This document shows positions 83 to 6,297 of a stretch of DNA of 6,297 bases, in pieces. The notes beneath the pieces are model-generated. The model was not told where the DNA came from. It saw only the letters and a list, made by a program, of their open reading frames with translations, and did not search any database. A program made the position numbers and the translations under genes. Origin of the DNA: a bacterium (GTDB lineage Bacteria > Thermosulfidibacterota > Thermosulfidibacteria > Thermosulfidibacterales > JALWSI01); the NCBI GenBank assembly GCA_027080315.1, contig JALWSI010000117.1, forward strand, positions 1-6,297, read 5' to 3'. The stretch's first letter is position 1. Each line of letters begins with the position of its first letter.

Positions 83-1142
83 CAGGGGGGCTTTGCTTGG
101 AAAGTGTCAAAGTAGGGACTTAGCAAGAAAGGCCAGGCTTTTTTTTAGCCTGGCCATGTCATTGATCCTTCTCACTGCTTGTTTCTTTCCTCCTTACATC
201 TCTCCAGAAGAGGGCGAGAAGCTGAGCCCTGGGATGGAGAAGAAGATAGAGAAAGAGAGGCAGAGAGCCTTTAATAGCCAAATTGTTTCTCTTGCTGCCA
301 CCCAAGGCAGTGGAGAGAATCTCTATCGTTTGGGACCAGGGGATGTAGTGGAGATCTCAATATTTGGCGTTGAGGCCTTGTCAGACATAAAGGTTCGCAT
401 TGGGGGAGACGGATATGCCAGCCTGCCTCTGGTTGGTCCCGTGAAACTGGGAGGTATTACTGTAAGGGAGGCGCAGAAGGCAGTAGCCAAGGCCTATAGA
501 GCCTACATAAACAACCCCAAGGTGACCTTCTACATCTCAGAATACCATAACTACAGGGTTTCTGTTTTGGGAGAGGTCAAAAAGCCGTCTGTCTATGAGC
601 TGAAGGGGCCTCGCAGTCTGCTGGATGTTATTGCGCAGGCTGGCGGGGTGACAGACGACGCCGACCATACCATAACGGTGGTTCGTACGGAGAATGGCAC
701 AAGGCGCAGCATGATCATTGATCTTGATCAGCTGATCAAGGGCAAAGACCCTACAGGAAACATCATGGTACAGGCCAATGATGTGATCTATGTCCCTCTG
801 GCAGGCAGTTATTTCGTAGATGGTATGGTTAGACACCCAGGGGCATACCATCTCACAGAGCCTGTCACTTTGAGCAAGGCCATAGCCATAGCCGGGGGCA
901 TGGTAGGTGGAGCAGATATAAAGAAAGTGGGCATCTATCGCACAACAAAAGAGGGTACCAGAAAACCCATCATAGTTAACCTTGAGGATATCAGAGCTGG
1001 TAAGCTGGCTGATCCTGAGATTCAGGAGGGAGATGTGATTCTTGTAGGTAAAGACAGGTTGCAAGTGCTTGTTTCCAAGTTCCTTGGGTTCTTTGGGGTG
1101 CATTACAACGCTTACCCCTATAGGTTTGGAGTGGGACGATGA
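54..1142 (+). CDS. Wza-like polysaccharide export outer-membrane lipoprotein (Poly_export + SLBB domains)
   Basis: This protein of 362 residues is predicted to form the periplasm-spanning outer-membrane channel through which exopolysaccharide or capsule leaves the cell. Residues 1-42 form a long basic signal peptide with a hydrophobic core (about 29-42). It ends in a lipobox, LTAC, with Cys43 as the likely lipidated residue, so the mature protein is an outer-membrane lipoprotein. A polar, charged stretch (about 50-75) follows. The polysaccharide export domain starts at YRLGPGD (91-97), the family's hallmark opening, and runs to about 165. Two SLBB-type beta-grasp repeats follow, at about 169-250 (LGEVKKPSVYEL, then AGGVTDDAD) and 253-340 (DGMVRHPGAYHL, then AGGMVGGAD). 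The length is close to E. coli Wza (379). The stop overlaps the next start by 4 nt (ATGA), which indicates coupling to the tyrosine kinase gene, its usual partner. An 8-T run and a strong inverted repeat lie in the signal-peptide region. Confidence 0.95.
   Translation: MPAKPTQRSSRGALLGKCQSRDLARKARLFFSLAMSLILLTACFFPPYISPEEGEKLSPGMEKKIEKERQRAFNSQIVSLAATQGSGENLYRLGPGDVVEISIFGVEALSDIKVRIGGDGYASLPLVGPVKLGGITVREAQKAVAKAYRAYINNPKVTFYISEYHNYRVSVLGEVKKPSVYELKGPRSLLDVIAQAGGVTDDADHTITVVRTENGTRRSMIIDLDQLIKGKDPTGNIMVQANDVIYVPLAGSYFVDGMVRHPGAYHLTEPVTLSKAIAIAGGMVGGADIKKVGIYRTTKEGTRKPIIVNLEDIRAGKLADPEIQEGDVILVGKDRLQVLVSKFLGFFGVHYNAYPYRFGVGR
131..155 (+). repeat. Perfect 9-bp inverted repeat with T-only loop inside the signal-peptide coding region
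   Basis: GGCCAGGCT at 131-139 is exactly complementary to AGCCTGGCC at 147-155, separated by seven Ts. In RNA this gives a GC-rich 9-bp hairpin with a U7 loop, immediately followed by an in-frame ATG at 156. It codes for residues around ARLFFSLA. The T tract is in the loop, not after the stem, so it is not an intrinsic terminator. Whether it regulates translation of the export gene cannot be told from sequence alone. Confidence 0.5.
1128..1131 (+). promoter_or_regulatory. Ribosome-binding site of the tyrosine autokinase gene
   Basis: GGAG at 1128-1131 lies 7 bases before the ATG at 1139, inside the last codons of the export gene. With the ATGA stop/start overlap at 1139-1142, it supports re-initiation by ribosomes finishing the upstream gene. 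Confidence 0.55.
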
Positions 1143-3538
1143 GTGGATCTGAGCTTGTTCCCAACAAGGATGCCCGTGCTCCCGTTATTCAGGGGGAGTG
1201 GATGCCTGCAGGGCAAGAGGGCGTGTATCCCGGGGTGCAGGTTTATGGGCCCTACGGTCCCTATGGACCATACGGTGAGCCTGAAGAGACCGGCATAACC
1301 CTTAGGGAACTCATAGCCATAATAGTGAGACGCCGGTGGACCATTATCGGCGTGCTGCTGGTGGTGCTTTTGTCGGGAATAGTGTGGTGCTTTAACACCC
1401 CTCCCACCTACAAGGCTACAGCTCACATTGAGATCATGCCTCCTCCTCCCATAGCTCCTTTCAAGGATGCAAAGGGTGTGAACTATGTTCCAGATAGCAA
1501 ATTTTTCCAGTCTCAGCTCTACATATTGAAGAGCAGGGGGCTTGCTCAAAGGGTGGTGGAGAGGCTCAACCTCTACAACAACAAGGCCTTCACATCTCCT
1601 CCAAAGGGAATTGGATCCTGGTTTGGGGTGATCTCTTCTACCTTGAAGGATCTCTTCAACCCTGCTCCTTCTACCGAGGCAAAGGAAGATGGTCCTGGTG
1701 TTTCTGTTTCTAACGACAGGGTTATGGAGGGCTTGGTGGACAAGCTGCTGGCAGGGCTCACAGTGGCTCCCCCCAACAGCAGAAGGGGAGGAGGTGGGTC
1801 TATTGTTGAGATAAGCTACGAAGGCCCTGATCCCAAACTATGCGCTCAGATAGTGAACACCTTGGTTGACGAGTACATCCACTTTGACATGGAGAGGAGA
1901 ATAGAGGGAACAAAGCTGGGAAAGAAGTACCTTGAGAAGCAGCTTGCCAAGGTGCAGGCGAGGTTAGAGGTGGCCCAGGAACAGCTTAATCGCTTTGCCA
2001 AAGAGAACGATCTTGTTCTGCTACGGCCCTCCACTGCAGATGGAAAAGAGCAGGGTGACCTCATATCTGAAAAGCTCTCGGATCTCTTGAAGCAGCTGAA
2101 TCAGGCAGAGGCTGACGAGATAACCGCCCGTAATAAGTACCTGTACAGTTTAAAGAACGTTGATGACACCGCTGCTATGAGGGGAGACACCACCATAGCC
2201 TCTCTACGGACCAAGCTGGAAGAGCTTAAGAGACGCTACGCAACCATGTTGACCACCTTCACTCCCAAGTATCCGGCCATGCAGGAGCTTGCCAAAGAGA
2301 TTGAGACGGTCAAGAAGGAGATTGCCCAAGAGCGAGAGAAGATAGTTGCCAGCCTGCGTAATCAGTATCTTCTTGCCCACCAGAAGAGGATCGCTTTGCA
2401 GAAAGAGGTGGAGGCACAGAAGAACCTGGCCTCTTCCCTTGAAGAGAAGGCAGTTGATTACAATATACTTAAACGTGAGGTGGAGACCAACCGAAAGATC
2501 TACGACATGATTCTTACCCGCATGAAGGAGATGGAGGTAGCGGCTGGTATCCAGTCCAGTGCCATCCATCCCATAGATGCCGCCATAGTGCCTTCGCGCC
2601 CTTACAAGCCCAACAAACCTCTAACCTTTGCCATATCTCTGATTCTGGGGACCATGCTTGGTCTTCTCTCTGCGGTAGGATTGGAGTTCTTGGACAACAC
2701 GGTGAAGGATCCAGAAGAGGTGGAGAAGATGCTCTACCTGCCTACTTTGGGTGTTGTTCCTCTGGTTAAGCTGCCCTCAAAGAAGGTGGAGAGGGGAGAG
2801 ACGGTAGATCTCGTCTCTATTACCGAGCCCAGGGCCCCTGCCTCAGAGGCCTTTCGGATGGTGAGAACATCTCTTCTTCTCTCTTCTGCAGGTAAGCCTC
2901 CTCAGATCATCGCCGTTACCTCTCCCCAGATTGGAGCGGGAAAGAGCTTCGTTTCTCTGAATCTTGCTCTATCTTTTGCACAGGCCAAGTCAAAGGTGCT
3001 CCTCGTTGACTGCGACCTCAGAAGGGGACGACTTCACAAGGTGCTGAAAGAGGATCTCTATCCTGGGCTTACCAACTACCTTGCAGGCAGGGTTGAGAAG
3101 CCTGCAATTGTGCGTGAGGTGGTGAGGGACGAGGTGGTGATCCACTTTGTGCCCACAGGTGCCACTCCTCCTAATCCAGTGGAGCTCATTAACTCCTCTA
3201 CGTTTGAAGAGCTTTTGGAGAGCTGGAGGAAAGAGTATGACCACATAATCATTGACACACCTCCCCTCATAGGTTTTGCCGATGCCCTTCTCATCGCAAG
3301 GTTGTCAGATGGAGCTATACTGGCCTTGCGGGCAGATCAAACCCCTAAACCTGCTGCCAAAAACGCAAGGGATCAGCTGAAGCAGGTGGGTGCCAAGCTA
3401 TTGGGGACTGTGGTGAATGGAATGGCCACGGGACGTCACGCATACTACTATTCCTACGGCAAGTATCACGGATACTCCCACTACTATTCAAAGGATTACT
3501 ACAGTGGTTCGCCCTACAGCCTACCTTCCCGCAGCTAA
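1139..3538 (+). CDS. Wzc-like polysaccharide co-polymerase / bacterial tyrosine autokinase
   Basis: This inner-membrane protein of 799 residues is predicted to set polymer chain length and couple synthesis to export through its autokinase. The order is: a cytoplasmic N-terminus with a Tyr-Gly-Pro repeat (36-46); the Wzz-type domain from about 54; membrane helix 1 at about 67-86 (after RRR); a long coiled-coil-rich periplasmic region (about 240-470); the co-polymerase Pro-rich motif PSRPYKPNKP (485-494); membrane helix 2 at about 495-515; and a C-terminal BY-kinase domain. Kinase motifs are intact. They are EAFRMVR (570-576, the ExxRxxR subunit-contact motif), Walker A SPQIGAGKS (595-603, Lys602), Walker A' LLVDCD (621-626) and Walker B IIIDTPP (703-709). 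The tail (769-793) holds 11 tyrosines, the expected autophosphorylation cluster. The N- and C-terminal halves are fused in one chain as in proteobacterial Wzc, unlike the split Firmicute CapA/CapB. No cognate phosphatase is visible in the window. Confidence 0.96.
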   Translation: MSGSELVPNKDARAPVIQGEWMPAGQEGVYPGVQVYGPYGPYGPYGEPEETGITLRELIAIIVRRRWTIIGVLLVVLLSGIVWCFNTPPTYKATAHIEIMPPPPIAPFKDAKGVNYVPDSKFFQSQLYILKSRGLAQRVVERLNLYNNKAFTSPPKGIGSWFGVISSTLKDLFNPAPSTEAKEDGPGVSVSNDRVMEGLVDKLLAGLTVAPPNSRRGGGGSIVEISYEGPDPKLCAQIVNTLVDEYIHFDMERRIEGTKLGKKYLEKQLAKVQARLEVAQEQLNRFAKENDLVLLRPSTADGKEQGDLISEKLSDLLKQLNQAEADEITARNKYLYSLKNVDDTAAMRGDTTIASLRTKLEELKRRYATMLTTFTPKYPAMQELAKEIETVKKEIAQEREKIVASLRNQYLLAHQKRIALQKEVEAQKNLASSLEEKAVDYNILKREVETNRKIYDMILTRMKEMEVAAGIQSSAIHPIDAAIVPSRPYKPNKPLTFAISLILGTMLGLLSAVGLEFLDNTVKDPEEVEKMLYLPTLGVVPLVKLPSKKVERGETVDLVSITEPRAPASEAFRMVRTSLLLSSAGKPPQIIAVTSPQIGAGKSFVSLNLALSFAQAKSKVLLVDCDLRRGRLHKVLKEDLYPGLTNYLAGRVEKPAIVREVVRDEVVIHFVPTGATPPNPVELINSSTFEELLESWRKEYDHIIIDTPPLIGFADALLIARLSDGAILALRADQTPKPAAKNARDQLKQVGAKLLGTVVNGMATGRHAYYYSYGKYHGYSHYYSKDYYSGSPYSLPSRS
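1244..1276 (+). repeat. 9-bp coding tandem repeat encoding Tyr-Gly-Pro units in the kinase N-terminus
   Basis: Three full TAY-GGN-CCN units plus a partial fourth encode YGPYGPYGPYG (residues 36-46 of the autokinase), before the first membrane helix. Third positions vary between units (TAT/TAC, GGG/GGT/GGA, CCC/CCA). The repeat is therefore old or held by protein-level selection and is not a fresh slippage product. The four Tyr residues would face the cytoplasm. Confidence 0.8.
3490..3495 (+). promoter_or_regulatory. Ribosome-binding site supporting a GTG start for the TPR/beta-sandwich gene
   Basis: AAAGGA lies 8 bases upstream of the GTG at 3504, within the Tyr-rich 3' end of the kinase gene. 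The ATG at 3417 gives the longest open frame but has no comparable site. Starting there would add a Thr-rich stretch that is only the frame-shifted reading of the kinase's Tyr codons. Confidence 0.5.
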
Positions 3539-4787
3539 GGAGGGGTCAAAACCCTTTCTGTGGCCCTTTGTGCCGCTGTTGTTGGCGGCTATGCTGATCT
3601 CTCTTCAGCCCCTCATGGGAGCGGTTGCCAGACTTTCGGCGGGAGATGATGTAGAGAAGGGGGCTTTAAGAGCCATGGCGGTTAATCCTCTGAATCCTAA
3701 GTGGAACAGAATCTTGGGAGTGTTCTACCGCTATTCTGGAGAGCCCTTTAAGGCTTTAGGGTTTCAAGAGGGGTTGGTTCTGAAGGATCCTCTTAACCCT
3801 GATGCCTGGATAGACCTTGGGGAGACTCTGCTCTTTATGCACAGGCCTCAGGGGCTCAACATGGTAAAGAATGCCTCTTTTCTTGACCCAACCGATGGTG
3901 GCTATCGCTGGAAGGTGTTAATAACCGCCCTTCAAATGGGAAATGTTGAGCTTGCCTCAAGGGAGATGAAAGCATTGCTGCTTTTAGAGCCCTCAAAACG
4001 GCCGATCATTTTTCAGCTTGCCTACCGTCTCTTTGAAGGAGACATGAACACGGTTATGAGCAAGGTTATTCCTTTGGATCAGAAGGTTATGGAAGACTTC
4101 TTGTTCTATCTGTTCCGACACAACGAGGCGGCTGAAGCCTGGCAACTTTGGCAGGAGCTTGAGCTAAGGGATTGGATTACAGAGAGGGCCCTGAAGGGTA
4201 TGGTGAGCTTTCTGATGCAGAATCAGGCCTACGGCATGGCCTACTCCATCTGGTCAAGGCACGTGGCAGAGGACCAACCTGGGGTTGTTTTTAACCCAGG
4301 GTTTGAGAATGAGCTTTTGGGGTACGGTTTTGGCTGGAGGTGGGAGAAGGTTAGGGGGGTTAGCTACGATCTAAGCTACAGCCAGCACGTTGAGGGGCGC
4401 CACTCTTTTCACCTGAGATTTGACGGTGAACACAATCCGGCCTTTATCACTCCATACCAGATTGTCTATCTGGCAGAGCCTGGAAACTATATTTTGAGGG
4501 CCTTTGTTAAGACCAGATCAATAACCAGCAGTGAGGGGCCGTATCTCTTTGTGCAGGGACAGAATGGGGCTGTGGCCAAGGGACCCAAGCTGAGAGGGGA
4601 TAACGCCTGGAGAGAAGTGCTGATTCCCTTCTCTCTTGCGAAGGGAGACAATGCGGTTGTGATAGGAATAAGAAGAGATAAAAGTCATAAGCTGAACCGT
4701 TTTCTGGGTGGAGAATTGTGGATAGACAAGGTGAGCATAGAGCATCAGGAGGAGAATGAAGAAGAAGGAACTGGAGGAGCTGCTTGA
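3504..4787 (+). CDS. Membrane-anchored TPR-like protein with C-terminal galactose-binding-like (CBM4/9-type) domain
   Basis: From the preferred GTG start the protein has 427 residues. An ATG at 3417 would give 456. A hydrophobic segment at about 18-41 (WPFVPLLLAAMLISLQPL) is a membrane anchor or uncleaved signal. Residues about 50-250 are helical, with TPR-like features: NPLNPKW at 61, DPLNPDAWIDLGETLL from 95, and repeated Ala/Leu heptads. At residue 264 the motif NPGFE opens a beta-rich domain that runs to about 417. NPGFE-type openings and the final GELWIDKVSIE strand are typical of CBM4/9-like galactose-binding folds. The last residues are acidic (EENEEEG). The overlap with the kinase gene is 35 nt and with the next gene 32 nt, so it belongs to the operon. 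I infer a periplasmic scaffold or glycan-binding accessory factor. No catalytic residues were recognised. Domain calls are by eye, and the TPR part is divergent. Confidence 0.85.
   Translation: MVRPTAYLPAAKEGSKPFLWPFVPLLLAAMLISLQPLMGAVARLSAGDDVEKGALRAMAVNPLNPKWNRILGVFYRYSGEPFKALGFQEGLVLKDPLNPDAWIDLGETLLFMHRPQGLNMVKNASFLDPTDGGYRWKVLITALQMGNVELASREMKALLLLEPSKRPIIFQLAYRLFEGDMNTVMSKVIPLDQKVMEDFLFYLFRHNEAAEAWQLWQELELRDWITERALKGMVSFLMQNQAYGMAYSIWSRHVAEDQPGVVFNPGFENELLGYGFGWRWEKVRGVSYDLSYSQHVEGRHSFHLRFDGEHNPAFITPYQIVYLAEPGNYILRAFVKTRSITSSEGPYLFVQGQNGAVAKGPKLRGDNAWREVLIPFSLAKGDNAVVIGIRRDKSHKLNRFLGGELWIDKVSIEHQEENEEEGTGGAA
4747..4752 (+). promoter_or_regulatory. Ribosome-binding site of the J-domain gene
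   Basis: AGGAGG lies inside the end of the preceding gene, only 3 bases before the ATG at 4756, which is a short spacing. The frame has stops just upstream (TAG at 4738-4740) and no other ATG, GTG or TTG between that stop and 4756. The start is therefore well fixed despite the tight spacing. Confidence 0.65.
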
Positions 4788-6297
4788 GGAGATCCTGAAG
4801 AGCAGGGATATCTTCAAGGTCTTCTTGGGGCTTAAATGGCCACCCTCTGAGGTACTTGAAGGGATAATGAGGATTCAACATCCCGATGCCAAGGGGGTGA
4901 TCTCTGCTGTAGCCAGAAAACACAAGGTGGGCAGAGACTATCTGCTGCAGCAGATAGACCGGATTTTGAGGCAGCTCAAAGAGATAAAAGAGAACAACCC
5001 CTACAGCATACTGGGGGTGGCCCCAGATGCGTCTCAGTCTCAGATAAAGGATGCCTGGAAAGAGAAGGTACGACAGTGGCATCCTGATAAGAACAGGGAT
5101 AGGTTGGAGGAGGCCCAGAGAAAAACCAGAAGGTACAACGAGGCTTACGAGCTCTTACGTGATCCGAAAAGAAGATTGACTTACGACAGGGCCCATCTAC
5201 CTTTGATCATCCTGCTTCAGGGGTTAGAGATGTCTAAATTCTTCTCCAATGAGGATGATAAAGCTTCAAAAGAGAGGGTATCCCCTTCTTCAACAGATAC
5301 TCCAACAGAAAGGAGAAGAGGGGGATTTTTGAAAAAGATCCTGAAGCTTGCCATTGTTCTCCTCTGTTTGGCCTCTATTGGAGCCTGGGCTGGGCATTAC
5401 GGAGTGAACATTCTCCTCAAAAGAGAGAGAGGGAGCGAAAGCAGAATAGCTGCAGAGGACGATCTGAGCATCACTCCCCCAGTGGCTACGAAGAGGAATT
5501 TGGCAGCACCATCTCTTCCTGTTGAGGATAGGGGTCTTCCTGAGGAGCTGAAAAAGGTGTTGAAACCGCATTCTCCTGGGTCTCACAGAAAGGAGGCGGT
5601 AGCGAAGGTCTCTTACCACAAAGATGAGAAAATGAGCCAAAGGACTGAGCGGCCTTTGATAGCCGTTGCCCCTTTCGTTGAGAAGAAGGGTGAAGCTGAG
5701 AAGGATCTTAAGCAGCCAGAGAAAAGGTCAAATAAGTCTGTGTCTCAGAAGCTTTTGGCCAAGGCATCGACGGTTTCTAAGCCCTTGAAAGAGAAGGCCG
5801 GAGTTGGAGGGTCAGAGGAGTCAAAGGTTAAAAAAGAGAAGAAAAAGGAGTCTAAGGACGAATCAAAGAAGTCTAAAGCATCAAAAGCCACAAAGAGGAC
5901 TAAAAGGGGGATAAATAGCAAGAAGAAAAAGAAGACGAGGGTTGTTGTAAAGAAGACATCTAAACCTGTTGCGAGCAAGGTGAAGAGGAATAGTCATACC
6001 GGAGAAAGTGAAGAGAAGGTTGACGAGTCTCTTCTTGCAATTGTGCTGAGAGAGTTGAAGGGAACAGAAGAGGAAGAAAAAAAGGATAAGGATGAGACCA
6101 GAATGGCAGCATCTCATACCCATTCTCCTTCCAAACTGGTGAAAAAGGAAAAAGAGAGGCCCCAGTCCCATACTCACAAAGAGAAACCCAAGATTGCTAA
6201 GGATGAGGTTAAGGAGGCTTCTCCTGAGAAGACGGGTGAAGGTAAGGAGAGACCAACAAAGGTAGCTTCCACCTCCACCAAGAAGCCGCTTGTGGCC
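4756..6297 (+). CDS. J-domain (DnaJ-like) membrane protein with long Lys-rich tail (3' end outside the window)
   Basis: An uninterrupted frame of 514 codons runs off the window end without a stop. Residues 1-75 are a charged helical region. A canonical J-domain follows at about 81-145: NPYSILGV at 81-88, helix II, HPD at 109-111, then YNEAYELLRDPKRR and TYD (142-144). The spacing from LGV to HPD equals that of E. coli DnaJ. J-domains stimulate the ATPase of DnaK, so this end should be cytoplasmic. After RRRGGFLKK, one membrane helix spans about 196-213. The rest (220-514) is low-complexity, rich in Lys, Glu, Ser and Pro, with 23 Lys in residues 356-415. It looks like the extended linkers of TonB/TolA or SPOR proteins, although a folded C-terminal domain may lie beyond the window. 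No Gly/Phe region or zinc finger is present, so it is a type III J-protein. It overlaps the previous gene by 32 nt. Its function in polysaccharide export is unknown. Confidence 0.9.
   Translation, partial: MKKKELEELLEEILKSRDIFKVFLGLKWPPSEVLEGIMRIQHPDAKGVISAVARKHKVGRDYLLQQIDRILRQLKEIKENNPYSILGVAPDASQSQIKDAWKEKVRQWHPDKNRDRLEEAQRKTRRYNEAYELLRDPKRRLTYDRAHLPLIILLQGLEMSKFFSNEDDKASKERVSPSSTDTPTERRRGGFLKKILKLAIVLLCLASIGAWAGHYGVNILLKRERGSESRIAAEDDLSITPPVATKRNLAAPSLPVEDRGLPEELKKVLKPHSPGSHRKEAVAKVSYHKDEKMSQRTERPLIAVAPFVEKKGEAEKDLKQPEKRSNKSVSQKLLAKASTVSKPLKEKAGVGGSEESKVKKEKKKESKDESKKSKASKATKRTKRGINSKKKKKTRVVVKKTSKPVASKVKRNSHTGESEEKVDESLLAIVLRELKGTEEEEKKDKDETRMAASHTHSPSKLVKKEKERPQSHTHKEKPKIAKDEVKEASPEKTGEGKERPTKVASTSTKKPLVA

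Follow-up and report, generated by a model that had tools for sequence, protein, structure and literature searches.

A membrane J-domain protein with a long low-complexity linker encoded in a Wza/Wzc polysaccharide export locus

The window analysed here is a stretch of 6,297 nucleotides that corresponds to contig C117 of genome G000 in full, the assembly comprising 1.84 Mb in 253 contigs. It holds four genes (wza-like, wzc-like, TPR-like and a J-domain gene), all on the + strand. One true orthologue of the J protein was found among 386 genomes, in G003, a distant relative from another family of the same order and phylum. The phylum is little studied, and our sample of it consists of nine genomes from one order and three families. 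The features of the window are as follows.

54–1142, + strand: wza-like OPX lipoprotein, 362 amino acids, lipobox LTAC; PF02563 with E 7.6e-21 and two SLBB domains; a similar gene lies in the same position in G003
1139–3538, + strand: wzc-like PCP-2a / BY-kinase, 799 amino acids; Wzz, GNVR and AAA_31 domains, TIGR01007 above cut-off
3417–4787, + strand: TPR-like accessory protein, 33% identical over 413 amino acids to its counterpart beside the G003 J gene; exact start uncertain (between 3417 and 3591)
4747–4787, + strand: AGGAGG ribosome site (4747) and 32-nt overlap of the TPR and J genes (4756–4787); the overlap at the G003 junction is 35 nt
4756–6297, + strand: J-domain membrane protein, 514 amino acids visible, open at the contig end; orthologue at L005:1501–3108
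4756–4995, + strand: pre-J region, residues 1–80, predicted helical, 25% identical to G003
4996–5187, + strand: J-domain (PF00226), residues 81–144, HPD at 109–111
5338–5394, + strand: single transmembrane helix, residues 195–213, Kyte-Doolittle mean 2.11 over 19 residues
5395–6297, + strand: basic low-complexity linker by composition, residues 214–514, no Pfam family, ended by the contig

Both the window and G003 contain an OPX protein and a PCP-2a BY-kinase with related genes adjoining, which identifies a Wza/Wzc export locus and agrees with the polysaccharide export operon of the original prediction. The wzc-like protein is 50% identical to its G003 copy. Its Walker and kinase motifs are intact (AGKS at 600, DCDLRR at 624, IIIDTPP at 703), and its C-terminal tail holds 11 tyrosines. 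Hydropathy analysis gives the TPR-like protein a single N-terminal membrane helix. The ribosome site together with the gene overlap, the latter already recognized from the DNA, would lead to coupled translation of the two genes, TPR and J. Upstream of the G003 locus we find glycosyltransferases and a sugar transferase, both named by eye, and the neighbours of the G003 J gene include the following.

L025:10835–12055: TPR-like neighbour, TPR repeats above Pfam cut-offs
L025:13600–14799 and 14319–16103, − strand: reading frames of a CpsB/CapC phosphatase and a Wzy_C O-antigen ligase, which converge on the J gene

The gene order wza-wzc-TPR-J is the same in G000 and G003, that is, in two families. 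Within the phylum sample, this Wzc, the full-length TPR protein and the protein with pre-J region and J-domain co-occur in two of the nine genomes (G000 and G003), and the other seven, some of which are incomplete (71–96%), lack all three alike. The three proteins are therefore present or absent together and the sole orthologue lies at the same place, which upholds the proposed link to the operon, with conservation resting on one orthologue pair. A scatter of homologues with respect to polysaccharide genes was not seen in this one pair.

Two minor observations concern the surroundings of these genes. In both genomes the C-terminal domain of the TPR-like protein resembles a carbohydrate-binding domain when named by eye, without a family name. 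Positions 2–82 of the window, in frame 2, read as the tail end of an upstream ORF (...AIAAGNSGGGGKHHASETNPTE) with its stop at 80–82; the counterpart position in G003 is occupied by a secreted-looking gene without a Pfam match (L025:6477–7211).

The canonical J-domain of the original prediction is borne out by Pfam. PF00226 matches the window protein with E 9.7e-18 and a score of 64.5 bits, the cut-off being 27.8; the search of the genome gave 69.8 bits. It is the sole Pfam family above cut-off both here and in the full-length G003 protein. The HPD motif is intact in both orthologues. Zinc-finger and C-terminal client-binding domains of class A/B DnaJ are absent from the window protein and the full-length G003 protein according to Pfam, and the pre-J region matches no Pfam family above cut-off. 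A second HPD within the pre-J region (residues 42–44, 4879–4887) is not kept in G003 and hhalign finds no J-domain there; we judge it coincidental. The predicted membrane helix was recovered as a single hydropathy peak, and the charges on either side leave its orientation undecided. A single-sequence AlphaFold model of residues 1–235 (mean pLDDT 42.6) was too poor for use.

Beyond the helix the window protein continues for 301 residues with 20.6% lysine and a net charge of +32, in good agreement with the basic low-complexity tail of about 300 residues described before. The ORF runs off the contig end, which leaves the protein truncated and without its C-terminus; the end 23-mer of the window, sought in the other G000 contigs to extend the gene, gave no match. 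The visible 'giant tail' thus sets a minimum length for a linker, and it need not be the true C-terminus. A tail that reaches the end of a short contig, with a codon-position composition flatter than in wzc, could also reflect a chimera or a frame error in the assembly. However, its 301 codons are free of stops to the window end, compared with 5–28 stops in the other five frames, and a linker of comparable length occupies the same place in G003. An artefact of this kind is thus very improbable.

The G003 protein is complete, with 535 amino acids, and provides a view of the whole architecture. The match spans the pre-J region and J-domain (37% identity over residues 1–154). Its J-domain (81–143) is followed by a helix (176–194, hydropathy mean 2.93), a linker (196–415) and a C-terminal segment (416–535), giving about 340 residues beyond the helix. 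The linker contains 24.5% proline, 10% glutamine, 12.3% serine and 8.6% lysine, with a net charge of +21 over 220 residues. What both tails share is a long, net-positive, probably disordered spacer, while the richness in lysine is not conserved. Because lysine makes up only 8.6% in G003, where proline, glutamine and serine dominate, we give no special weight to the lysine-rich tail, which the original prediction had singled out, and take the tail to be a spacer rather than a lysine-specific binding device. A tail that binds acidic polysaccharide or peptidoglycan, with the J-domain in a secondary role, would suit the net positive charge of both linkers and the lysine content in the window. The low lysine content in G003 argues against such binding, as does the outcome of the domain search that had been suggested, in which no peptidoglycan- or sugar-binding family matched the G003 protein or the visible part of the window protein. 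We consider a polymer-binding tail quite unlikely. The same search gave no SPOR, TonB_C or TolA domain in either protein, the window's own C-terminus being missing.

Besides canonical DnaJ-length proteins, the 386 genomes contain no further orthologue at E 1e-17. Matches in G051, G022 and G047 that extend upstream of the J-domain belong to J-TPR proteins (three of four beside dnaK) and are not orthologues. A search of genome contigs returned a single match, to the J-domain alone.

The C-terminal segment of the G003 protein is not of low complexity. It aligns with the full model of PF14534 (DUF4440; positions 3–107 of 107) with an E of 0.007 that does not reach the cut-off, and SnoaL-like families rank next. 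A search of the PDB yielded weak ketosteroid isomerase matches. In a broad search of the 386 genomes with this segment most matches arose by chance; among the longer ones, only L078 and L080 are NTF2-like proteins of lipoprotein type, the domains of which match DUF4440 or SnoaL_3 above cut-off. A match in G007 is an unrelated gene hit by chance. Comparison of the G003 domain with domains of periplasmic NTF2-like lipoproteins by hhalign gave 96% probability over 104 columns, the partners having come from the same G003 query so that the comparison is not fully independent. Judging from these alignments, the segment is probably a folded, NTF2-like domain. This is consistent with the bridging layout, in which J-domain, helix and long linker lead to a C-terminal domain; thus, of the original interpretation, the operon link and the layout stand and the emphasis on the lysine-rich tail does not. 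Neither the G003 domain nor PF14534 used as query located such a domain in the G000 genome. The window protein may nevertheless end in the same domain, as we infer from its orthologue.

The reading that we favour, held tentatively and at a little short of even confidence, is that of a class-C membrane-anchored J-protein of the Wza/Wzc export locus, which recruits DnaK and carries a periplasmic arm. Its topology, the recruitment of DnaK and the client are what we infer from sequence and context. J-domains require the cytoplasm, and for this reason the tail is placed in the periplasm. DnaK is encoded by a single gene per genome and the J-domain thus has one obvious partner. The N-terminal half, comprising the pre-J helices and the J-domain, would lie in the cytoplasm, where it would recruit and activate the sole DnaK beside the inner-membrane Wzc kinase. 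The single helix would span the inner membrane, and the disordered linker and the C-terminal domain (probably NTF2-like) may extend into the periplasm and dock on or sense the export machine. The likeliest client would be the cytoplasmic kinase ring of Wzc, a ring that drives polymerisation through its cycle of assembly and disassembly. We propose DnaK recruitment and this client because Wzc cycles between an octamer and a dissociated form and this cycling is required (PMC11986026), because Hsp70 disassembles oligomers (PMC8215388), and because the neighbouring Wzc has retained its kinase motifs and tyrosine-rich tail.

Wzc must assemble and disassemble for export of capsule or exopolysaccharide. 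Beyond phosphorylation, a J-protein from the same operon would offer Hsp70 a direct route to the Wzc cycle, and would help to account for the scattered observations of altered polysaccharide output linked to DnaK and J-proteins. A role in controlling sugar export is plausible. A further-reaching version, in which a trans-envelope Hsp70 recruiter crosses the inner membrane and connects cytoplasmic DnaK with the Wza translocon, such that the state of the periplasmic polymer or translocon switches the action of DnaK on the Wzc ring, appears rather unlikely to us.

The J-domain, the helix and the operon data would also fit a dedicated biogenesis chaperone that brings DnaK for folding or insertion of nascent Wzc, Wzy or TPR protein, the arm being a tether only and export not being regulated. 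DnaK is known to aid membrane insertion of proteins such as DjlC (PMC8215388). However, the long linker and the ordered C-terminal domain exceed what help in folding needs. In addition, most Wza/Wzc operons function without a dedicated J-protein; we regard this alternative as credible but on the unlikely side. The J-protein could also present DnaK to Wzc as a substrate for tyrosine phosphorylation, with chaperone activity following export status. In Bacillus subtilis, PtkA phosphorylates DnaK at Tyr601 and the Y601F variant binds DnaJ and GrpE poorly (PMC4835898), and the Wzc adjoining our J gene has complete kinase motifs and a tyrosine-rich tail. As PtkA is no exporter subunit, we judge this improbable and retain DnaK acting on the Wzc ring as the preferred reading.

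Comparison with known systems places the protein among membrane-anchored co-chaperones. Like DjlA of Escherichia coli, it is a single-helix inner-membrane J-protein. DjlA itself works with DnaK, and its overproduction raises the colanic acid capsule in a manner that needs an active J-domain, membrane location and DnaK (PMC11709261). In the present protein the J-domain precedes the helix, whereas DjlA has its helix at the N-terminus, then a TerB-like domain, and its J-domain at the C-terminus, with only a short part of the protein in the periplasm. DjlA works through Rcs signalling, and its description does not place it in a wza/wzc operon (PMC11709261). An identity with DjlA is further contradicted by the absence of a TerB match and by a score of 27.1 bits for the NCBIfam DjlA model against a cut-off of 162, covering the J-domain only. 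The E. coli proteins DjlB and DjlC have a cytoplasmic J-domain followed by one membrane helix (PMC8215388), as is predicted here for the cytoplasmic side. Unlike our protein, with 301 or more residues past the helix (and more in G003), they are tail-anchored with nothing beyond it, and they pair with HscC and not DnaK (PMC8215388), whereas one Hsp70 per genome is present here.

Polysaccharide output is controlled by a J-protein/Hsp70 pair in Nostoc punctiforme, DnaK1-DnaJ3 (PMC9239167). This pair acts with type IV pilus motors and is known from co-expression and two-hybrid data; it is compared here by function. In Myxococcus xanthus, exopolysaccharide or extracellular fibrils are affected by StkA and SglK (PMC4319316, PMC8265645), but these are Hsp70 homologues, while the window encodes a membrane J-protein. 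The likeness to TonB and TolA is one of layout only, with a cytoplasmic N-terminus, a helix, a long low-complexity periplasmic linker and a folded C-terminal domain in what would be the topology here; unlike these, our protein has a J-domain, and neither a TonB_C nor a TolA domain was found in the visible window tail or in full-length G003. The G003 C-terminal domain aligns over its whole length with NTF2-like periplasmic lipoproteins (DUF4440 / SnoaL-like) but caps a J-domain membrane protein. Our literature search brought up no J-protein encoded in a Wzc or exosortase locus, and none of the systems compared unites, within a wza/wzc operon, a pre-J region and J-domain with a helix, a long linker and a C-terminal domain. 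We thus file the layout as new among membrane-anchored class-C J-proteins, the type of co-chaperone itself being known. In viral contigs (L058–L068), the protein has matches to the J-domain only, several of them at 38–39% identity and reaching residue 164.
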